Assembly (NCBI GenBank): GCA_001563305.1
Contig: CP013703.1
Coordinates: 1,103,773-1,167,772 of the forward strand
DNA: 64,000 nt
Origin: a methanogenic archaeon mixed culture ISO4-G1
GTDB lineage: Archaea; Thermoplasmatota; Thermoplasmata; Methanomassiliicoccales; Methanomethylophilaceae
Direction of reading: 5' to 3'
The first letter of the stretch is position 1. Each line of letters starts with the position of its first letter. Positions 46,329-60,277 of the stretch are shown here, piece after piece. A model generated the notes under the pieces. It was given only the letters and a program-made list of their open reading frames with translations. It made no database searches and had not been told where the DNA came from. Both the position numbers and the translations under genes were made by a program.

Positions 46329-47615
46329 ATGAGAACAGCACTTACAGTCGCAGGGTCTGACTCCGTAGGCGGAGCCGGCATACAGGCGGATATCAAGGCC
46401 ATGGCGGCCGTCGGTATCCATGCCGCATCGGTGATCACGGCGGTCACGGCCCAGAACACCCAGGGCGTCGACGGGATATTCCCCATACCGACCGATTTCA
46501 TACAGACCCAGCTGGAGTCCGTTCTCAGTGATTGCGACATCAAGGCCGTCAAGACAGGAATGCTCTACAGCGCCGACATCGTCGAGACCGTGGCTGACGT
46601 CCTGGAGGACCATGACGTGCCGCTCATCGTGGATCCGGTCATGGTATCCGGAACGGGCTGCTCCCTCTGCGACGACGATTTCGTGAGGGCTCTGAAGAAG
46701 AAGCTCCTGCCCATATGCGAGCTCGTGACCCCCAACATGTACGAGGCCGAGGTCCTGGCGGGAATGAAGATCAGGAACGAAGACGACATCACCCTGGCAT
46801 GCGAGCTAATCGGTAAACAGGGATCCTCCGTGCTGTTCAAAGGAGGGCACCTGAAAGGCCCCAAGGTGGTGGACTACCTCTACCTGTCATCGGAGTTCAA
46901 CAAAATGGAGTACCCCCGTCTCAACAAGGCCGGGCACGGAAGCGGATGCACGCTCTCGGCATACATCACCGCCAACATGGCGAAGGGCCTAGACATAGTC
47001 AACGCCGTCATGAAGTCCAGGGACATGATACAGGAATCCATAGCGACACAGTACGCCATCGGCCAGGGGGACGTGGTCGTCAACCCCATGGTGAAGGTCA
47101 AAGGCGAATCGGACAAGTTCAAGATCCTGGATGCGCTCGATTCCGCATCCGCGAGGATCGTGGACATGGTCCCGGATGAGTTCGTTCCCAACAGCGGTAT
47201 GAACATCGCATACGCCCTGAAGGACGCCGCGGGACCGGAGGAGATCGCGGCCATCGACAAGCGCATGACCGTCCACAACGGCATCCTCAGGAAGAACGGC
47301 CCTGCAAAGTTCGGTGCCGCCGAGCACCTCTCGTACATGCTCCTGGAGGTCATGAAGCGCGACCCGAAGACCAGATGCATCATGAGCCTCGCTTACCGCG
47401 AGGACATCATCGACGTCATGGAGGAGGTCGGATTCGAGACCGTATCCGCCGAGATCCGGAAGGACAGGATATCGGAGTCCACCGCCAAGGCCCTGGGCAA
47501 GAGCAACAAAATGCCCGATGCCATCATCGACAAGGGCTCGTCCAAAGGCAGGCTCATCAGGATGCTGGCACATGACCCTGAGGACATGCTCTCGAAGCTG
47601 GAGTACATCCTCTGA
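46329..47615 (+). CDS. thiDN: Bifunctional HMP(-P) kinase and thiamine-phosphate synthase (ThiD-ThiN fusion)
   Basis: The 428-residue protein makes thiamine phosphate. Residues 1 to about 255 are ThiD, phosphorylating hydroxymethylpyrimidine twice: TVAGSDSVGGAGIQADIKA, DPVMVSGTGCSLC and NKAGHGSGCTLSAYITANMA (catalytic cysteine/aspartate area). Residues about 265-428 are ThiN, the archaeal thiamine phosphate synthase domain (ARIVDMVPDEFVPNSGMNIA; KARLDP-like region; PDAIIDKGSSKGRLIRMLA). A TATTTATT box lies 25 bases upstream of ATG 46329. ThiE, an unrelated enzyme for the same step, is encoded at 49284, so the step is duplicated. Confidence 0.92.
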   Translation: MRTALTVAGSDSVGGAGIQADIKAMAAVGIHAASVITAVTAQNTQGVDGIFPIPTDFIQTQLESVLSDCDIKAVKTGMLYSADIVETVADVLEDHDVPLIVDPVMVSGTGCSLCDDDFVRALKKKLLPICELVTPNMYEAEVLAGMKIRNEDDITLACELIGKQGSSVLFKGGHLKGPKVVDYLYLSSEFNKMEYPRLNKAGHGSGCTLSAYITANMAKGLDIVNAVMKSRDMIQESIATQYAIGQGDVVVNPMVKVKGESDKFKILDALDSASARIVDMVPDEFVPNSGMNIAYALKDAAGPEEIAAIDKRMTVHNGILRKNGPAKFGAAEHLSYMLLEVMKRDPKTRCIMSLAYREDIIDVMEEVGFETVSAEIRKDRISESTAKALGKSNKMPDAIIDKGSSKGRLIRMLAHDPEDMLSKLEYIL

Positions 47616-49283: not shown

Positions 49284-49907
49284 ATGTTCGACCTCTATGT
49301 GATCACGGACGAATCGCTTTCCAAGGGCCGCTCCAACGTCGAGATCGCACGCATGGCGTACGAGGGCGGGGCGGATGTCGTACAGCTGAGGATGAAGGGA
49401 GCATCCAAGGAGGACATGCTCCGGGACGCGCTGAAGATCAAGGAGATCGCCGACGATTACAACAGGTTCTTCATAGTCAACGACAGCGTCGAAGTGGCAC
49501 TAGAATCCGGAGCGGACGGGGTACATCTGGGACAGTCGGATATGCCGCTCGAGGAGGCGATCGATATCCTCGGCCACAGGGCCATCATAGGCATATCGGC
49601 GAACACCGTGGAGAAGGCCGTCGAGGCCGAGCAGGGAGGAGCATCGTACATAGGGGTGGGCGCCATCTTCAAGACATCCACGAAACCCGATGCGACCCAG
49701 GGCATCGGACTCGATGCGATATTCAGGATCAGGCAGGCCGTGGACATTCCTATCGTGGCCATCGGGGGCATCAACCAGGGCAACATCCAGGAAGTGATCA
49801 GGGCCGGAGCGGACTCCGCCGCGGTCGTGTCCGCCGTGGTGTCCAAGGACGATGTCGTGAAAGCGGCCCACGATCTCAGAGACCTCATCCTGAAGGCCCG
49901 CCTGTAA
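49284..49907 (+). CDS. thiE: Thiamine-phosphate synthase ThiE
   Basis: The 207-residue TIM-barrel enzyme couples HMP-PP with HET-P. Seen are DLYVITDESL at the start, DVVQLRMKGASKED, FFIVNDSVEVALESGADGVHLGQ, YIGVGAIFKTSTKPDA and VAIGGINQGNIQEVI for the phosphate site. No thi-box riboswitch was seen upstream (no CTGAGA-type core). The ThiD-ThiN fusion encodes an alternative enzyme for the same step nearby. Confidence 0.95.
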   Translation: MFDLYVITDESLSKGRSNVEIARMAYEGGADVVQLRMKGASKEDMLRDALKIKEIADDYNRFFIVNDSVEVALESGADGVHLGQSDMPLEEAIDILGHRAIIGISANTVEKAVEAEQGGASYIGVGAIFKTSTKPDATQGIGLDAIFRIRQAVDIPIVAIGGINQGNIQEVIRAGADSAAVVSAVVSKDDVVKAAHDLRDLILKARL

Positions 49908-50271: not shown

Positions 50272-51054
50272 TCACCAGAGCGTGTTTATCGAACCCCACA
50301 TCATGTGCGGGCGTCCGTTGTCCTCGATGACCCTGCATCCGATGTCGTATACGTCCATAATCATCTTCTCCGTGAACACCTCCTTGGGCGTTCCCATGGA
50401 ATAGATGACCCCGGGCTTCGACATCACGATGACCTCGTGGGAATACTTCGCTGCTATGTTGAGGTCGTGGCTTATCATGACGATTATCATCCCCTCCTGC
50501 ACCGCCAGTGCGCGGAGGAGTTCGGAGACGTACACTTGATGCTTCACATCCAGGTTCGCCGTGGGCTCGTCCAGTATGAGCATCTCGGTCTCCTGCACCA
50601 TGCCCCTTGCAAGATTCACCTTCTGCTGCTGTCCGGCGGACAGTTCGGAACAGCTGCGCATTGCAAGATCGGATATCCCCATCGTCTCCATCGCACGGTT
50701 GGACATTTCGATGTCCCTTTCGGTGGTCCTCCATCTGCTCTTGTTGTGCCTCCCGAGGAGGATGGCGTCAAGGATTGGTACGGAGAAGCTTATCTCCGAC
50801 GATACTGGCACATATCCGATCCGCTCGGAGATCTCCTTGGATCCCATCGACGCGATGTCCCTGCCGTCGATGAGCACCTCACCGGACGTAGGCGTCAGGA
50901 TCCTGTTCATGCATTTCACGAGGGTGGATTTCCCCACCCCGTTGGGACCCACTATGCAGTAGAGTCCCGGACGTTCCATCCTGAGCGATATGTCCTGTAT
51001 GATCGGGGTATGCCCGTCGTAGCTGAAGGAAACGTCTCTCATCTCGAATATCAT
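50272..51054 (-). CDS. FecE-type ABC ATPase (system 3)
   Basis: The 260-residue ATPase has Walker A GPNGVGKST, the signature LSAGQQQKVNLARGMVQET and Walker B MLILDEPTANLD, with MISHDLNIAAKYSHEV. It begins immediately after the permease stop. Its C-terminus (CRVIEDNGRPHMMWGSINTL) again shows the D-N-G-x-P-H tail found in systems 1 and 2, which suggests a shared origin. The operon is binding protein, permease, ATPase with only one permease gene, so the permease may act as homodimer. Confidence 0.93.
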   Translation of the reverse strand: MIFEMRDVSFSYDGHTPIIQDISLRMERPGLYCIVGPNGVGKSTLVKCMNRILTPTSGEVLIDGRDIASMGSKEISERIGYVPVSSEISFSVPILDAILLGRHNKSRWRTTERDIEMSNRAMETMGISDLAMRSCSELSAGQQQKVNLARGMVQETEMLILDEPTANLDVKHQVYVSELLRALAVQEGMIIVMISHDLNIAAKYSHEVIVMSKPGVIYSMGTPKEVFTEKMIMDVYDIGCRVIEDNGRPHMMWGSINTLW

Positions 51055-52194
51055 TCAATCCCACACCTTTTTGTTGGACCTCAGGATCAGCCAGAGGAAC
51101 AGCGGTCCGCCCAGGAACGATGTGACCACACCCACCTCCAGGACCGCTGGGGCGACGATGAGCCTGCCTACCATATCCGCTATGATGAGCAGGAAGGCAC
51201 CGAAGATGGCCGAGGCAGGTACCAGGAACCTGTTGTCGGACCCTATGAATATCCTCGTTATGTGCGGAGCGACCAGTCCGACGAACCCTATCAGCCCCGT
51301 CACGCTGACGACGGCCGCGGTGGTCAGGGAGACCACAAGGAGGGTGAGCCTCCTTATCAGGCCGGTGTTCACCCCCAGGCCCTTGGCGTTCTCCTCGCCG
51401 GATGCCAGTACGTTGAGCTTGCGGGAGAGGAACTGTATGACCGCCATCCCGCCTATTACGAATCCCAGGAGCATCGGGATGTCCGACCATGTAGAGAAGT
51501 ACAGCGTGCCGACGCTCCACTCGTACAGCGCCTTGAGGTCGTTGGGATCGGCGCTGAGCTTGATCAGTGCGGTGAGGGCGTTGAATATGTACATCACCGC
51601 GATCCCTGCCATGATCATCGTGGTGGGTGAGCTGTTCCTCACCTTGGATACCAGCATGATCGCCGCCATCGGGATCAGGGCGAAGACGAAGGCGTTCAGC
51701 ACTATCCCTCCGCTGCCCAGCAGGCTGATGTGGAGGATCATGCCCAACGTGGCCCCGAACAGCGCTCCGGAGGACACTCCGGTGGTGTACGGGTCGGCCA
51801 GCGGGTTCAGCAGGGAGCTCTGCATAGCGACGCCGCAGACGGCGAGCCCCACGCCCGCCAGTATCGCGGTCACGATCCTTGGGAGGCGCAGGTTGATGAT
51901 GATGTGGTCTTTTAGCGGATCCGCCACATCGCCGACGATGTGATCCCACACGATCTGGAAGGTCTCTAGGAAACCTATGGAATATCCTCCCAGCGTCAGC
52001 GAGTAACCGAATACCAGAACGGTAAGGGTCAGGCATGCGGCCATGAAGACCCATTTCCTCCAGGTGTACCTGCGGTACCCTTCAAGGGTCTCGGAGAGCC
52101 GTTCCGATTCGAGCGGCCTGCTCCATCTGTCCACGGATTGACGGACGACGCCGTCGATCAGGGGATCGTTGGTTACATCGTCGGAAAGGGTCAT
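51055..52194 (-). CDS. FecCD-type ABC permease (system 3)
   Basis: The 379-residue permease has a hydrophilic N-terminal extension of about 50 residues (ESERLSETLEGYRRYTWRKW) followed by about ten helices with INLRLPRIVTAILAGVGLA, LNPLADPYTTGVSSGALFG and FVGLVAPHITRIFIG. It is the only permease in its operon. It follows the binding-protein gene after a stem-loop (52209-52226), an arrangement repeated in system 2. Confidence 0.93.
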   Translation of the reverse strand: MTLSDDVTNDPLIDGVVRQSVDRWSRPLESERLSETLEGYRRYTWRKWVFMAACLTLTVLVFGYSLTLGGYSIGFLETFQIVWDHIVGDVADPLKDHIIINLRLPRIVTAILAGVGLAVCGVAMQSSLLNPLADPYTTGVSSGALFGATLGMILHISLLGSGGIVLNAFVFALIPMAAIMLVSKVRNSSPTTMIMAGIAVMYIFNALTALIKLSADPNDLKALYEWSVGTLYFSTWSDIPMLLGFVIGGMAVIQFLSRKLNVLASGEENAKGLGVNTGLIRRLTLLVVSLTTAAVVSVTGLIGFVGLVAPHITRIFIGSDNRFLVPASAIFGAFLLIIADMVGRLIVAPAVLEVGVVTSFLGGPLFLWLILRSNKKVWD

Positions 52195-52208
52195 GGGGTC
52201 AAGGTAAT

Positions 52209-52226
52209 GGGGGCGCGGACGCCCCC
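52209..52226 (-). terminator. Intercistronic stem-loop in ABC operon 3
   Basis: GGGGGCG and CGCCCCC pair around CGGA, between the binding-protein stop and the permease start. There is no strong T-run, so it may stabilise the upstream mRNA rather than terminate. Confidence 0.45.
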
Positions 52227-52230
52227 GGTT

Positions 52231-53541
52231 TCAGAGCGCGTAGATCTGAGCCCCCGCGAGGGTCTTGACATTCACGTCCTTGTACAGGGTGAACTGGTCG
52301 TAGTACTCCTGGATGTAGTTCCATCCCTTCTCCGAGTCGAAGTCGTTCGGCCACAGGTAGGAACAGATCAGCGGGAGCTGGGCTATTCCGCTGACGTTTC
52401 CGAGGACGTAGTAGTTCACACCGAACACCATCTTGTTCTTGTAGGCGTTGGTCTCCTTGAAGAAGTCCGCGGACTCCTTGAACTCGGCCTTGCCCTCGTC
52501 CACGGTGTCGTTGGTACCGCTCAGCGAGACGTAGAAGATGACGTCGGGATTGAGGTTGTACACCTCCTCCATCTCGAGCTCCGGATACATTATGTCGGCG
52601 CTGGGGTGGAAGGCGTCCTTCACGTTGATGAACGAGAGGGTGAACAGCTCCCCGTACATTGTGCCGTCGTCGTACGTAACGTCAACCTCGGTGGATGCCG
52701 CGGTGGGGTAGAGCGCGCAGAGACAGGTCTTGGCCGCGAGGCTCTTGCCCTTGATCTCTTCGGTGATCTTGTCCATGAACTTCACGTACTTCTCGGCCTT
52801 ATCCTCGACCTGGAACATGACTCCGAGCATCAGCATGGAACCATTCCTGTCGGGTCCGTCGGGATCGTAGAGGCTGAGGTTTAGCTGTACGACGTTGACG
52901 TCGAGGTGTCCTGCCTCGATCGCCGTTTCGAGCTTGGATAGGTCGGACTCGCTGTGGTTGAGGATGGTCTTCACGCCGCTCTGGAGGGCGGGCTCGGGAT
53001 CGGTCTGGGGCTTCCCGATGTCTGTGAAGGCGTGGGTCTCGGGGTACTTGGCCTTGTCCCCCCACTGGACGTTGGTGATAACGTTGTGCGTGACCGCCTT
53101 GACGTCCTCGTAAAGTCCGAGTGCGATGCACGCGTCGATGGGGTACATGTGGATGCATCCGATGTTCTTCGAGAGGGGGTAGGTGATCTTGTCGACCTCT
53201 CCGCTTGCGCTCACAAAGTACATGGTAGCGGATTCCTTGTTGACGAACTTCTGAAGGAGGTCAGCATCGGCCTGATCGATCTTCCCGTCGTGGTTGGTGT
53301 CCGCGTAGGGGTTCTTGGTCTTGTCCCATTTGCTGGGGTCCTTAACCAGGTCCTTCACGAGATCGAGGTCGTCCCCATCGAGATAGTCGTTGTTGTCAGC
53401 GTTGCCGTATATGAGCAGCCTTCCGGTCTTATCCAGATGGTCGTTCGAACTGTTGTTGCCGCCGAATGTGATAGCAACGGCGACAGCCGCGCCGACGACT
53501 ACGATACCTGCTGCGATAATTGCGATAAGTTTCGTATTCAT
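52231..53541 (-). CDS. ABC substrate-binding protein with dockerin-like EF-hand pair (system 3)
   Basis: The 436-residue protein starts MNTKLIAIIAAGIVVVGAAV, has two calcium-loop repeats, YGNADNNDYLDGDDL and ADTNHDGKIDQAD (residues about 45-95), then a FecB-type domain (NIGCIHMYPIDACIALGL, YNLNPDVIFYVSL). The loops resemble dockerin type I, which could tether the receptor to another surface protein or simply stabilise it with calcium. A TATA-like CTAATATA lies about 25 bases before ATG 53541, overlapped by the repeated operator at 53567-53600. The ligand is unknown. Confidence 0.85.
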   Translation of the reverse strand: MNTKLIAIIAAGIVVVGAAVAVAITFGGNNSSNDHLDKTGRLLIYGNADNNDYLDGDDLDLVKDLVKDPSKWDKTKNPYADTNHDGKIDQADADLLQKFVNKESATMYFVSASGEVDKITYPLSKNIGCIHMYPIDACIALGLYEDVKAVTHNVITNVQWGDKAKYPETHAFTDIGKPQTDPEPALQSGVKTILNHSESDLSKLETAIEAGHLDVNVVQLNLSLYDPDGPDRNGSMLMLGVMFQVEDKAEKYVKFMDKITEEIKGKSLAAKTCLCALYPTAASTEVDVTYDDGTMYGELFTLSFINVKDAFHPSADIMYPELEMEEVYNLNPDVIFYVSLSGTNDTVDEGKAEFKESADFFKETNAYKNKMVFGVNYYVLGNVSGIAQLPLICSYLWPNDFDSEKGWNYIQEYYDQFTLYKDVNVKTLAGAQIYAL

Positions 53542-53566: not shown

Positions 53567-53600
53567 TATTAGTGTTACTAATTTTTTATTAGTGTTACTA
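53567..53600. promoter_or_regulatory. Twin operator: two TATTAGTGTTACTA copies 20 bp apart
   Basis: Identical 14-base copies occupy 53567-53580 and 53587-53600. Each contains an inverted repeat TAGT-GTT-ACTA, extended to TTAGT/ACTAA in the first. The 20-bp spacing puts both on one face of the helix, and the first overlaps the TATA box of the minus-strand operon. A regulator could bind cooperatively and block transcription. Confidence 0.6.
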
Positions 53601-53696
53601 CCGATGGGGGTATATGTACACGCAGATTCGCATGAGGTGTCAGAGGTCAGAGTGAATACCGAACACAGTTGAGAAGATGGTTAGGTTTAAAATAAC

Positions 53697-53714
53697 ACAC
53701 GCAAATAGTCGTGT
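53697..53714. promoter_or_regulatory. ACACG/CGTGT inverted repeat at the regulator start
   Basis: ACACG and CGTGT flank CAAATAGT directly before ATG 53715, over the likely transcription start (TATA-like TTTAAAATAA at about 53686-53695). The arms match those within the repeat at 542-566, so self-regulation is possible. Confidence 0.4.
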
Positions 53715-56141
53715 ATGGGCGCCCAGGACGAGTATCTGCGCAACTTCTGCATCCTGCTCACGAGCAAAGGAGCTGTGCCGCTGACGGATCCGTTACAGAT
53801 CACGGTCTACCAGAGCCTTCTGAAAGGCATGAAGAGGCCCAGCGACCTCGCTGAAGAGCTGAACCTCAGTTCTTCCTCCCTTCACTTCATCATCGACAAG
53901 ATGGTCGAATCTGGGATCATAGACAGGACGAAGTCGGAGCACGACAAGAAGACGGTCTACTATTCCACCAAGGCAAGGATCCTGGCCTGCTCGGCAGACA
54001 CGGACGATGCTCGCAGGGACGAATGCACTAGGAATTTCACGGATCCGCTGAAGAACTACAACGGACTCGGATCGCTCTCCAACATGCTCGACTGCTACGT
54101 ATCCGAGATCGGACTCGACATGGAGTATCTGAAGGAGAGCTACGCGGAGGCGTTGGCGGACTGCATCGACATCCAGAAGGCAGGCATGGAGGATGCCGTC
54201 CTCGAGATCAGGGACGTGTTCACCAAGCTCACCGGATTCACTTTCACGGTATACTCGTTCTCACCGCTGACGCTGGTCGTGAAGGGCGACAACGAAATCA
54301 TGAAGAGATCGCCTCCGATGATGAGGTTCATCGCGAAGATGATCGAGAACGCCACAGGACGCTGGTACAACACCACCGGTATCGAACCGTTCAACGGCTC
54401 AGAGGACATGGTGAAGGTCACCATGGAACGTGCGGAGAAGCCGGAGTCCGAGTACATCAACACCACCCTGAACCATCTGGACAAGGACCGTTTCCTGGTC
54501 GTCGACCTCGACGGTAACGCCGGGCTCATGACGAGCGAGGTCCAGATGCAGATTGTGGATGCGGTCTACGAGAGGCCGCTGTGCATCACAGACATAGTCA
54601 ACTGCGTGGACTTCCCGAGGTCCACAATCACCTCGAACCTCCTCAGGATGGTCGAGGAAGGAGTCATATCGGTGTTCTATTCCGAATCAGGCTCCGCATA
54701 CTACGGGCTGGCATGCTCCATCCTGTTCAAGAAGGTCCGCGAGATATCCAGCGACAGCGCGGAGATCTACGAGGCCCTGGAATCCGTGAAGGACAAGGAG
54801 AACGCCTACATGGAGGGTCAGCTCCTGTACATCCTGGCCTACCTTAGGAAGCTGGGATTCGACTCGCACTACATCATGGTCGTCCTCGGAGCGAAATACA
54901 TGAGGGCATCCGGTTCGCTGGATGTCCGCGAGGACTTCGACACGTACTTCGGGAAGATGTCCGACGTCGCGAAGACCATCGGTCTCTCGCTGAGCATCGT
55001 ATCCGTCTACCCGCTCACCATAGGCATCTCCAACACGGACCCGGAGATACAGATGTCGCAGGCGATGACGTTCATCACCGGCATGGCGCATCAGGGTCTG
55101 GAGATGGCCAGCAGCGGTATATTCGTCAGGAGCACGGAATCCCGTCAGTCCGACGAGAACGTATCCTTCAAGGAGATCTATCCGGCCCTCAGCATGAACC
55201 CGGTCAAGGGGATAAAGGTCGAGAACCTGGCCTCCGCTCCCAAGGCGAGCAAGCGCACATCCTCGGTCAAGACCGCCCTGCTGAACCGCAGCAAGAAGGA
55301 CAACGGGAAACCCGCAAGGACCGTCAGGTACATCACGTCGGCTGCCTTCATGCTTGCCTTGGCAGGTATGCTGTTCCTTGGATTCGCCGACCCGAACACC
55401 TCGGAACTCAGCGCAGACACGTTCAGCCTCTACATAGGCGACGACCTCGACGCCACGATCACCGACTCGTACGGCAACGAATTGACGTACCCGTACGGCT
55501 CCATAGAATCCGGCCAGGTCCTGACGCTCACGCTGTCGGAACCCAAGGACATCGGACTGATAACGGACGGATACGCATACCTGATGGAACCGACGGACGG
55601 CAAGTACGTGCTGACCATGGACTCCAACAAGTTCATCGAGGAGCTCGTGGACATATCGGCCCTCGAGAACGGCAAGTGCGACTTCTTCATCGAGGTCTCG
55701 GACACCAACGTCGTCAAGCCCTCGGACTACAAGGACATGACCGGCGGACTCTTCGTCAGCAAGAAGACCGACGTGAGGGTCGTACCCTACTCCGACTTCG
55801 CCATCCAGATCGGCGATGCGGGATTCGAGGGGAGCCTGAACAACTACACGTTCACCCCCCAGGTGTGCAACGACGTCACATTCATCTCCAAACCCGTGCA
55901 GATGAAGAAGGTCATCCTCGACAACGTGTTCATCTACGGCGGACAGCGCGTCGACGGAGGCATCATCGAGGTCGACGGAAAGGTCTCGTCCATCGAGCTT
56001 AAGTGGGCCAAGGACACCTATGTGACCGTCAAGGCCAACGGCGTCCCCATGAAACTTGACTGCGACAAGCGCTTCATCCTCGAACTCCCGGCGAACGGCG
56101 ATGTCGTCATCACCAGCGAGGAGGAGCGCCTGCTGGCCTGA
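53715..56141 (+). CDS. Membrane-anchored regulator with two HTH-sensor modules and an outer domain
   Basis: The 808-residue protein has a duplicated cytoplasmic part. A first winged HTH (residues about 20-75, RPSDLAEELNLSSSSLHFII) is followed by a sensor-like stretch (TFTVYSFSPLTLVVKGDNEI). A second HTH (about 270-325, ITDIVNCVDFPRSTITSNLL) is followed by a matching stretch (LSLSIVSVYPLTIGISNTDP). After a basic linker comes one membrane helix (about 538-556) and then a 250-residue beta-rich domain outside. It could bind DNA while sensing a signal through the membrane, like one-component ToxR-type regulators. It faces ABC system 3 across their promoters. Start: leaderless ATG 53715. Confidence 0.75.
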   Translation: MGAQDEYLRNFCILLTSKGAVPLTDPLQITVYQSLLKGMKRPSDLAEELNLSSSSLHFIIDKMVESGIIDRTKSEHDKKTVYYSTKARILACSADTDDARRDECTRNFTDPLKNYNGLGSLSNMLDCYVSEIGLDMEYLKESYAEALADCIDIQKAGMEDAVLEIRDVFTKLTGFTFTVYSFSPLTLVVKGDNEIMKRSPPMMRFIAKMIENATGRWYNTTGIEPFNGSEDMVKVTMERAEKPESEYINTTLNHLDKDRFLVVDLDGNAGLMTSEVQMQIVDAVYERPLCITDIVNCVDFPRSTITSNLLRMVEEGVISVFYSESGSAYYGLACSILFKKVREISSDSAEIYEALESVKDKENAYMEGQLLYILAYLRKLGFDSHYIMVVLGAKYMRASGSLDVREDFDTYFGKMSDVAKTIGLSLSIVSVYPLTIGISNTDPEIQMSQAMTFITGMAHQGLEMASSGIFVRSTESRQSDENVSFKEIYPALSMNPVKGIKVENLASAPKASKRTSSVKTALLNRSKKDNGKPARTVRYITSAAFMLALAGMLFLGFADPNTSELSADTFSLYIGDDLDATITDSYGNELTYPYGSIESGQVLTLTLSEPKDIGLITDGYAYLMEPTDGKYVLTMDSNKFIEELVDISALENGKCDFFIEVSDTNVVKPSDYKDMTGGLFVSKKTDVRVVPYSDFAIQIGDAGFEGSLNNYTFTPQVCNDVTFISKPVQMKKVILDNVFIYGGQRVDGGIIEVDGKVSSIELKWAKDTYVTVKANGVPMKLDCDKRFILELPANGDVVITSEEERLLA

Positions 56142-56162
56142 TGCGCCGGCGCGCTATGGCCG

Positions 56163-57452
56163 ATGTCCGCGGACAAGAACTCCGAGAAGATATTCTGCCC
56201 GTTCTGCGGAAGGGCCTTCTCAGGCAACTACAAGGACTGCCCGTTCTGCGGACAGGACATCAGACAGTACAAGGACGATCTCGGTCCGGTGCTGGGGAAG
56301 ATCCAGACCGCGACCAACATAGACATGAAGAGCACGAAGGTCCGCGTCACCATGGCGGCGGTCATGTTCGTGCTGGTATTCGCCGGTGCTTTGGTGGTCT
56401 TCGACTACTACGAGGCGACCAGGGCCGAGGACACCGCACCACCCGTCCCCGAAGGGATCATCGTGGACCTCGGCGGGAACGAGTACCTCGATCTCATGGG
56501 GGACTTCGTCACCCAGAAGCTGTCCCTGACCCCCAGGACCGAATCGGACCTGACTCTGGACATCTCGATTTCGGAGGACCACAGGAATGACTTCACGAAG
56601 GTCATCTGGATGGTCAGGACGGACACGTACAACAGCAACCCCCAGACCCCGTTCTTCCTGAAGGTCACCAAGGAGGCTTCTGACGGCGTCGATGTATGCA
56701 CCGTGACCTGGAACGACGTCACGATGGGAGCGTTCGAGGTCATAGCCGAATGCTTCACGGAGGGCGGCGAGAGCACGGTGTTCACCGGGAACGGAGTGCA
56801 TTACGGCAGATTGGCCACGAGCTACGCCTGGACATACGGGGAGACGGCATACACGTTCGACTACGAGATGTCATCCGCGGACGTCAGAGAGTGCCTGGAC
56901 GTGGATCTGAAGGAGAGGCTGAAGGCCCAATCTGTATCATCGATGGAGGACTATATCAACGACGGTGCGGCGGTATCCGACATCGAATCAAAGCTCAGGT
57001 CGCTGTTCTACAAGGTCAGATACACCGAGTCCGGTTATGCGGAGTTCGTCCTGTCCTTCGTGCAGTCCTGCTTCCCCTTGGAATACGACAGCTACAACTA
57101 CCGCACCGAGGACTACTGGGCCTATCCGACGGAGACCCTTCTGAACGGTTGCGGCGATGACGAGGACAGGGCGATACTGTTCTGCTCGATCATGCGCGCT
57201 GCGGGCTTCGGCACCGGCATCGTTCACCTCCCTGGCACTGTAATGGCCGCGGTGAACGTGGACCTCAGCGACAGTTTCATTCAGACGTATGCGAAGACCC
57301 AGAGCTCGGGCGGCAAGCAGTACACCGTCGCGGACACCGGTTCCGACCTCGGACTGGGCCTCATGAGAGAGCGCTACGACGTGGACAGCAGGGGAAGGCT
57401 GACCTTTGACGGTGATGTGCTCGGCAAGGAATACGGGCTAGTGACGGCGTGA
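56163..57452 (+). CDS. Zinc-ribbon, membrane-anchored transglutaminase-like protein lacking catalytic residues
   Basis: The 429-residue protein has an N-terminal zinc ribbon (FCPFCGRAFSGNYKDCPFCG, two C-x2-C), one membrane helix (about 62-80) and an outer part. Residues about 310-365 match a transglutaminase-like core: PTETLLNGCGDDEDRAILFC and HLPGTVMAAVNV. In active members the motif is G-D-C-E-D and the second motif has G-H-V; here the cysteine is D and the histidine T, so it is likely a non-catalytic relative. It starts 21 bases after the regulator stop and shares its zinc-ribbon/membrane design, so the two may form a sensor pair. Confidence 0.75.
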   Translation: MSADKNSEKIFCPFCGRAFSGNYKDCPFCGQDIRQYKDDLGPVLGKIQTATNIDMKSTKVRVTMAAVMFVLVFAGALVVFDYYEATRAEDTAPPVPEGIIVDLGGNEYLDLMGDFVTQKLSLTPRTESDLTLDISISEDHRNDFTKVIWMVRTDTYNSNPQTPFFLKVTKEASDGVDVCTVTWNDVTMGAFEVIAECFTEGGESTVFTGNGVHYGRLATSYAWTYGETAYTFDYEMSSADVRECLDVDLKERLKAQSVSSMEDYINDGAAVSDIESKLRSLFYKVRYTESGYAEFVLSFVQSCFPLEYDSYNYRTEDYWAYPTETLLNGCGDDEDRAILFCSIMRAAGFGTGIVHLPGTVMAAVNVDLSDSFIQTYAKTQSSGGKQYTVADTGSDLGLGLMRERYDVDSRGRLTFDGDVLGKEYGLVTA

Positions 57453-58346: not shown

Positions 58347-60277
58347 ATGTTCGAGATCATCAGAAGAGACGGGATGGCCCGCATAGGAAAGTTCACGACC
58401 AATTCGGGCCGTACCATGGAGACGCCGGCGCTGTTCCCAGTCATCAATCCGAAGATCAACACCGTTCCGGCCAGGGAGCTCTACGACACGTTCGGTTTCA
58501 AGTCCCTGATCACGAACTCCTACATCATCAAGAACACTCCCGATCTCAGGGAGAAGGCTCAGGCCGTCGGACTCCACGAGATGCTGGACTTCCCCGGGAT
58601 CATCATGACCGACTCGGGAACATTCCAGAGCCACATGTACGGGGAGGTCGAACTCACCAACGAGGAGATAGTCGAGTTCCAGAAATCCATCGGAACGGAC
58701 ATCGGTACCGTTCTGGACATCTTCACGGAACCCTACTGGACCAAGGAGCAGACCGCGGAATCCATCGAGGTCACCCTCGAGAGGACGCAGCAGGCCTGCG
58801 ACATGAAGGGCGAGATGATGATCAACGGTGTCGCTCAGGGATCCATCTATCCCGACCTCAGGGAGGACTGTGCCAGGCGCATGGCGGCCATGGACATCGA
58901 CGTCCACCCCATCGGCGGTGTCGTACCTCTCATGGAGCAGTACAGGTACGCAGAGCTCGTCGACGTCATCATGTCGAGCAAGAAGGGCCTGAACCCCAAC
59001 CGCCCCGTCCACCTGTTCGGAGCCGGACATCCTATGATCCTTGCGTTCGCAGCCCTCATGGGATGCGATTTCTTCGATTCAGCATCATACGCCAAATTCG
59101 CCCGTGACGACAGGATGATGTTCGTCGACGGCACATTCCGCCTGGCCGACATGGAGTCCCTGGACTGCAACTGCCCGGCATGCAGGGGCCACACCCTCGA
59201 AGAGCTCAGGAAGATGGAGAAGGCCAAGAAGACCAAGCTCATCGCCGAGCACAACCTCTACCAGATCGTGCAGGAGCTGAACCTCGTCAGGAGATACATC
59301 CGCGAGGGCCGCCTCTGGGAACTGGCGGAGATCAGGTGCAGGGCGCACCCGGCGCTCCTGGAGGCTCTGAGGAAGCTCAGGGACTACCAGGACATGATGG
59401 AGCAATACGATCCCATCAGCCGTGACGGTGCGATATTCTACACGGGATCCGAGACAGGAACCGCCCCGTTTTCAAGAGGTATCTCGACAGGCTCGGGACC
59501 AGATACGTCCTCCCTACGGACAAGGTCGCACTGTTCGTGGACACGAAGGGCAAACCGTACAGCAGGCCTTACGAGCAGGAGTTCGACAAGGCACGCAGGG
59601 CAGGGTACACGCCCATAGTCGTCACACCCTTCGGACCGGTACCTGCCGAATTGGATGAACTGTACCCTCTGGCACAATCCCTTTTCCCGCAGATAATGGA
59701 CGCCGAGACCGAGAACGAATCCGAGAGGCTTACCTATCAGTTCCTCAGCATGATGGGGGTCAAGGAGGTCATCCTCCAGGACCAGATCCCCGAGGGGGGA
59801 ACGGAGGAATACAACGCCGACATGCTCAGAGCCAAGGCGGTCGCCAGGTACCAGTTCGGTATCGAGGCCGCAGATGCCCTGTTCAGGGAACCTGTGGAGC
59901 TCGTGACCAGCCGCAAGACCGGCAAGATAAGGAACGTCATCTCGGACGGCGAGCACGTCCTCTCGATGCGTGCCGGGGACGGATTGTACACGCTGAAGCT
60001 CGAAGGTGCCAAGAGGATCGTCGCCGCGGTGCCCAAACCCCACATGAGGGTGCAGGTCGCCCAGGATGCGGCCCCGTTCGCCGCCGAAGGGCGCAACGTC
60101 TTCGCACAGTTCGTTACGGAATGCGATCCAGAGATACGCCTGATGGAGGAAGTGATAGTCACTGACCCCGAGGACAACCCTGTGGCGACCGGACGCGCAT
60201 TCCTGATACCTTTCGAGATCAGACAGATGAAGAAGGGTATGGCCGTAAAGGTCCGTTCCGGATCCAGCGACGAATGA
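58347..60277 (+). pseudogene. tgtA: tRNA-guanine(15) transglycosylase TgtA, split by one frameshift
   Basis: TgtA puts preQ0 at position 15 of tRNA on the way to archaeosine. The first frame (58347 to about 59455) holds the catalytic barrel: MTDSGTFQSHMYGEVEL, DIFTEPYW, NGVAQGSIYPDLRED and the zinc site CNCPACRGHTLEEL. After FYTGSETG the homology goes on in another frame with NRPVFKRYLDRLGTRYVLPT, then the C-terminal domains and PUA (GKIRNVISDGEHVLSMRAGD, GRNVFAQFVTECDPEI). One base is missing near 59455; no slippery heptamer is seen. A sequencing error, a mutation or a recoding event are possible. Start ATG 58347 is leaderless. Confidence 0.85.

Follow-up and report, generated by a model that had tools for sequence, protein, structure and literature searches.

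Locus and genome set

Two neighbouring genes on the plus strand of a 64,000-nucleotide stretch of the methanogenic archaeon mixed culture ISO4-G1 (contig CP013703.1; the whole stretch is referred to as the window and comes from a genome of 1.59 Mb, G000) were analysed for domain content, conservation and genomic context. The first, REG, is an open reading frame (ORF) of 808 codons (53715-56141) and the second, PTN, one of 429 codons (56163-57452). They are separated by 21 bp and both were scored as coding by a codon-model gene caller. Sixty related genomes served for comparison, 20 of which, all from one genus, carry a long membrane form of REG. REG and PTN are real genes and a conserved pair, best described as an archaeal co-component (ToxR/ToxS-like) membrane regulator that is new in composition and limited to the Methanomethylophilaceae. 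An earlier note on this DNA had read them as a two-gene transmembrane unit made up of a duplicated helix-turn-helix (HTH) regulator and an inactive partner resembling transglutaminases, which the anatomy of the proteins and their pairing bear out. Named relatives of REG found in the contig search come from metagenome-assembled genomes (MAGs) of Methanomethylophilaceae or Methanomassiliicoccales, some labelled Thermoplasmata only and one carrying a bacterial label.

Architecture of REG

Domain profile searches matched HTH domains in REG at residues ~28-84 (MarR/TrmB) and ~273-320 (ArsR-type). Alignment of module 1 (residues 7-250) with module 2 (residues 258-498) by HHalign gave an E value of 1.4e-6 over 196 columns and paired TVYSFSPLTLVVKGDNEI with SIVSVYPLTIGISNTDPEI, exactly the segments that the earlier note had compared for a repeated HTH and sensor-like segment. 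In the AlphaFold model of REG (pLDDT 73.6, 18 sequences in the alignment, low confidence for residues 490-567) both modules follow the same order of elements, namely a winged HTH, four helices, two strands, a helix and two strands. Foldseek returned MarR-type winged HTHs, H-NOX and YslB, the latter two of which we take to represent the V4R/H-NOX/TRAPP fold class. The NCBIfam MsvR profile matched REG at residues 272-436 (E 6.9e-11, 42 bits) and a single-unit 260-aa paralogue in the same genome end to end (143 bits), both under the cut-off of the profile at 220 bits, and module 1 aligned with this paralogue at an E value of 1.7e-15. Each module is an MsvR-like unit, a winged HTH followed by a V4R-like domain, related over its full length in the sense of kinship and not as an equivalog, and MsvR is the best description of the repeated unit. 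The sensor-like segment noted earlier is hence a real repeat, the MsvR/V4R-like identity of which had been missed.

As was also anticipated, the chain ends in a predicted membrane helix (residues 537-555) and an outer all-beta part (~565-805). With DNA-binding domains and one predicted transmembrane helix in a single chain, REG qualifies as a transmembrane transcription regulator (TTR).

Architecture and origin of PTN

The cysteines of the zinc ribbon (C12, C15, C26 and C29) and the predicted helix at residues 62-80 agree with the previous description of a partner that has a zinc ribbon inside, a helix and an outer domain. The Transglut_core profile match was weak; Foldseek searches with the AlphaFold model (pLDDT 79.8) returned putative cysteine proteases, LapG, TG2 and MD-1-like Ig folds. 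Lipid binding of the MD-1/MD-2 type by the Ig-like domain was considered and dropped, as the Foldseek probability of 1.0 was accompanied by a TM-score of 0.43.

The PTN ectodomain shares the fold of the transglutaminase-like/LapG proteins (peptidase C93) but differs from them in that the catalytic Cys is lost in all orthologues. It was found to be replaced in 17/17 aligned sequences (Asp in 8, Ser in 5, Gln in 2, Glu in 1 and Thr in 1), while the catalytic His was kept in 5 of the 17. In the window these positions are Asp333 and Thr359, as expected from the inactivity proposed earlier. The Cys-His-Asp triad of an active transglutaminase-like protease is thus absent from the 17 orthologues and, judged from these residues, PTN is an inactive transglutaminase. 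The GDCED motif with its catalytic Cys is intact in 10/10 PTN2 proteins, in 7/7 zinc-ribbon paralogues and in the paralogue from the same genome (L007). In the tree PTN forms a single clade (support 100/100) nested with active zinc-ribbon transglutaminases, which indicates that it arose once; all of its members have lost the Cys.

The PTN2 proteins (L074-L089, e.g. L077:16215-18134) are secreted or anchored transglutaminase-like proteins with an intact catalytic motif that are encoded near ThiM, also in genomes lacking REG (L128-L130), and the three checked by Pfam contain Listeria-Bacteroides repeats. The zinc-ribbon-transmembrane-transglutaminase paralogues (L121-L127), with GDCED intact, are mostly encoded beside a cardiolipin-synthase-like membrane protein. 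The ~490-aa genes next to the active zinc-ribbon transglutaminases were considered as regulators and rejected, most being by eye cardiolipin-synthase-type membrane proteins and not HTH proteins.

Pairing and covariation

PTN was the best match downstream of the long membrane REG in 20/20 relatives, and in 21/21 genomes including that of the window a dedicated membrane partner is co-encoded with REG, which is the arrangement of a co-component. A small PAS-domain gene lies between the two in three genomes (G003, G024 and G011; L068, L070 and L072); elsewhere they are adjacent. The PTN copies of G028 and G021 have one in-frame stop each. None of the five genomes with a shorter form of REG (G001, G002, G017, G026 and G034) has a PTN orthologue; these forms include a soluble protein of 465 aa (G001), one with a transmembrane helix and one short outer domain (G002) and a soluble protein of 513 aa (G034).

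Evolutionary distances of the REG outer domain and the PTN beta domain were correlated after control for distances of the cytoplasmic part of REG (partial r 0.54; Mantel p 0.001) in a test that leaves some phylogenetic effects in, and those of the REG outer domain and the transglutaminase part of PTN less so (partial r 0.19, p 0.024). At the level of sequence, this covariation hints at contact between REG and PTN.

Mean pairwise identity among REG proteins is 78% in the second HTH, 72% in the second V4R-like domain (residues 362-490) and 30% in the outer domain. The outer domains are fast-evolving. They could be anchors or surface parts only; the V4R domains in the cytoplasm would in that case bind the actual signal, for instance a thiamine intermediate, and the role of PTN would lie in the envelope and be unrelated. 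The higher identity of the cytoplasmic domains (50-78% by domain, versus 30% outside) and the soluble REG of G001, which stays in the thiamine (thi) locus without PTN, would fit such an arrangement. It is nevertheless unlikely, as PTN is strictly tied to the long outer form of REG and the outer domains of the two proteins covary.

The REG homologue of G017 (L088 9394) contains 5 in-frame TAG codons, 4 of them within the matched stretch, and is 481 aa long on read-through; that of G026 contains 3. This suggests either that TAG is a sense (pyrrolysine) codon in these genes or that they are decaying.

Relation to MsvR and other known systems

MsvR is a homodimer, and its redox switch relies on the V4R cysteines C206, C232 and C240 (PMC3729527). 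REG resembles it in the unit of winged HTH and V4R-like domain, matched by HHalign in both modules, and differs in having two units in one chain, a membrane helix, an outer domain and an obligate partner gene. Two cysteines of the second winged HTH, C290 and C334 (codons in 54582-54716), are invariant in 18/18 aligned REG proteins and by eye also in the distant soluble homologue of G034. Together with the kinship to MsvR, the DNA binding of which is redox-dependent (PMC3729527), they could speak for REG being a membrane-tethered, cysteine-based redox regulator. This appears improbable, however, since the key cysteines of MsvR lie in its V4R domain and the V4R domains of the aligned REG proteins have no cysteine conserved throughout. 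REG thereby lacks the conserved redox cysteines of the MsvR V4R domain.

A similar arrangement is that of ToxR/ToxS (PMC10269533), likewise a one-pass membrane regulator with an outer domain and a co-encoded one-pass partner with an outer domain. In contrast to ToxR/ToxS, REG-PTN is archaeal, with winged HTH units of the MsvR/ArsR type and two cytoplasmic sensor domains, and its partner combines a pseudo-transglutaminase with a zinc ribbon in the cytoplasm. ArnR and ArnR1 of Sulfolobus (PMC6396743) are also archaeal membrane-bound one-component regulators, although their role is in archaellum and pilus control. The coordinates of all features are collected in Table 1.

Table 1. Positions of REG, PTN and surrounding features in the window
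Feature	Coordinates	Strand	Basis
REG, membrane-anchored tandem MsvR-like regulator, 808 aa	53715..56141	+	
Winged HTH 1, MarR/TrmB type, res 8-95	53736..53999	+	domain match and AlphaFold model
V4R/H-NOX-like sensor domain 1, res 98-240	54006..54434	+	AlphaFold model; H-NOX, YslB folds; HHalign vs MsvR-like paralogue
Winged HTH 2, ArsR type, res 258-342, with invariant C290 and C334	54486..54740	+	
V4R/H-NOX-like sensor domain 2, res 349-490	54759..55184	+	
Conserved basic juxtamembrane segment, res 507-536, KRTSSVKTALLNRS...RTVRYIT	55233..55322	+	
Single transmembrane helix of REG, res 537-555	55323..55379	+	predicted
Outer all-beta domain of REG, res 565-808, fast evolving	55407..56138	+	AlphaFold model
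PTN, zinc ribbon, transmembrane helix, outer Ig-like domain and pseudo-transglutaminase, 429 aa	56163..57452	+	
Cytoplasmic zinc ribbon, CxxC-x10-CxxC, C12, C15, C26, C29	56196..56249	+	
Transmembrane helix of PTN, res 62-80	56346..56402	+	predicted
Outer Ig-like beta domain of PTN, res 99-236	56457..56870	+	
Transglutaminase/LapG-like fold of PTN, res 238-428, without catalytic Cys (D333) and His (T359)	56874..57449	+	
TATA box of REG-PTN operon, 30 bp before ATG (about 32 bp in relatives)	53685..53694	+	
Candidate operator/upstream element TACCGAACA	53657..53665	+	EM motif
Direct repeat TTAGTGTTACTAA/C x2, assigned to FecB promoter, not REG	53569..53601	.	
ThiD-ThiN fusion, part of conserved thi cluster	46329..47615	+	
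ThiE, thiamine-phosphate synthase	49284..49907	+	
FecD-FecC-FecB ABC operon	50272..53541	-	

Genomic neighbourhood

REG is immediately preceded, on the same strand, by a gene for ThiE or its paralogue TenI in each of the 20 relatives, TenI being the end of a ThiS-F-G-H operon. ThiM is found on the contig of REG in 20/20 relatives, mostly at most 3 kb away. The window genome differs from every relative with membrane REG in lacking a ThiM over the cut-off, and has FecBCD in the same cluster instead, between ThiE and REG. The ThiE and REG genes of G004 (L082 3974-7144) make up one uninterrupted ORF of 1056 aa, which is a gene fusion or a MAG assembly error. In G009 the same thi cluster, with ThiD, FKBP, rSAM, ThiE, Pth2, ThiM and PTN2, lacks REG-PTN; the REG-PTN module is accordingly a removable insert in the thi cluster.

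The search for the pair in related genomes that the earlier note had called for thus showed the pair to be kept in 20/20 relatives but FecBCD to lie beside it in none, and a conserved linkage of REG to FecBCD is not found.

No thiamine pyrophosphate (TPP) riboswitch was found over the cut-off in the window or its relatives (36 genomes). ThiR, the archaeal regulator of thiamine genes, is an HTH-ThiN protein; the window genome has no ThiR-like HTH-ThiN, its sole ThiN domain being that of the ThiD-ThiN fusion. Neither mark of ThiR or TPP riboswitch control, a ThiN-fused HTH or a TPP aptamer, was therefore seen in the respective searches. REG itself has no ThiN domain, and would share its role with ThiR if it controls thi genes. 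Because of the location of the pair and the lack of both a TPP riboswitch and a separate ThiN regulator, control of thiamine genes by REG-PTN is a reasonable guess.

Downstream of the pair (58347-60277), the archaeosine transglycosylase TgtA is split over two frames (423 and 246 aa) by a frameshift or a sequencing error; most relatives with a complete copy have a single ORF of ~641-650 aa.

Promoter elements

REG has a TATA box of its own in nearly all genomes, about 30-34 bp before the ATG. An element, YCYGANCA, is conserved upstream of it, ~12 bp away in most relatives and 19 bp in the window (expectation maximization (EM) score 118, versus 99.7 as best of 20 shuffles), and is a candidate autoregulatory site of REG on sequence grounds. 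As a motif of a thi regulon the element seemed promising on visual inspection of a few class-B promoters, but it was rejected because thi promoters showed no enrichment over control promoters (Mann-Whitney p 0.51 and 0.96).

Related operator arms had been taken as a hint that the pair controls chelate uptake. The arms AGTAACAC / GTGTTACT do recur, at 542-575 and 53569-53601, each upstream of a FecB gene, and at G000:C1:585000. They are on the FecB side, and the site at 53697, between the TATA box and ATG of REG, is not conserved in relatives. The TTAGTGTTACTAA repeats were rejected as a REG operator, being present in none of the REG promoters of relatives. The arms are perhaps a chelate-uptake operator of some other regulator. 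Regulation of the adjacent FecBCD operon by REG-PTN is very improbable: the promoters are divergent in the window and related repeats precede this FecB and another (~542), but the operon adjoins the pair in the window genome only, where relatives have ThiE or TenI (a different FecC/FecD pair lies farther off in the region, upstream of ThiD, in G008 alone), and the repeats have only two further occurrences in the genome, with one mismatch each.

Proposed mechanism

We consider it fairly probable that REG-PTN is a membrane-tethered tandem MsvR-like regulator with PTN as co-component, acting on its own promoter and on thi targets. REG would regulate transcription as a one-component protein held at the cytoplasmic membrane. 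Since MsvR is a homodimer and REG has two such units in one chain, these may form a built-in pseudo-dimer for DNA binding. PTN would be a dedicated co-component derived from an active zinc-ribbon transglutaminase-like ancestor that has lost catalysis and now acts in binding or as a receptor; its outer domain would contact that of REG in the way that ToxS contacts ToxR. A signal from outside, or a ligand bound by the V4R domains in the cytoplasm, would then alter DNA binding by REG at its own promoter, via the element upstream of the TATA box, and probably at nearby genes of thiamine synthesis and salvage. Of this picture, the domain anatomy, the duplication, the kinship to MsvR, the strict pairing, the lost catalytic residues and the position in a thi cluster are established, while contact between the proteins, the direction of the signal, the targets and the thiamine theme are inferred.

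Several observations weigh against this proposal. The MsvR matches lie below the family cut-off, the Pfam V4R model gives no match, and the transmembrane helices and orientation of both proteins are predictions. The covariation retains phylogenetic effects. As REG has its own promoter, co-transcription with ThiE is not required; the upstream element shows no preference for thi promoters; and the cluster of G009 implies that REG is not essential to the thi cluster, so that co-location may be plain synteny.

In its most specific form, REG-PTN would be the vitamin B1 control system of the Methanomethylophilaceae, substituting for ThiR or a TPP riboswitch, with the pseudo-transglutaminase receptor reading thiamine or a precursor at the surface and setting thi expression. 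This is possible though doubtful. If true, this would to our knowledge make REG-PTN the first co-component regulator in archaea to have a pseudoenzyme as its partner, and might fill a gap in the thiamine regulation known for gut methanogens. A literature search for Methanomassiliicoccales together with MsvR or with thiamine regulators returned nothing. Membrane-tethered regulators have been counted in the thousands and few studied, the known archaeal roles being motility and pili; ArnR and ArnR1 are not known to have a PTN-like partner or tandem MsvR-like units. REG-PTN offers a testable archaeal parallel to ToxR/ToxS and suggests a path of assembly in which a soluble tandem MsvR gained a transmembrane helix and outer domain and then recruited a dead enzyme as partner.

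Two soluble tandem MsvR-like regulators of ~490 aa, with N-terminal matches to the MsvR profile, are encoded elsewhere in the genome (L003 and L004, G000:C1 ~745 kb and ~753 kb), one of them beside a gene for a corrinoid methyltransferase-type protein. Double MsvR-like regulators encoded in methylotrophy loci may form a so far undescribed family.

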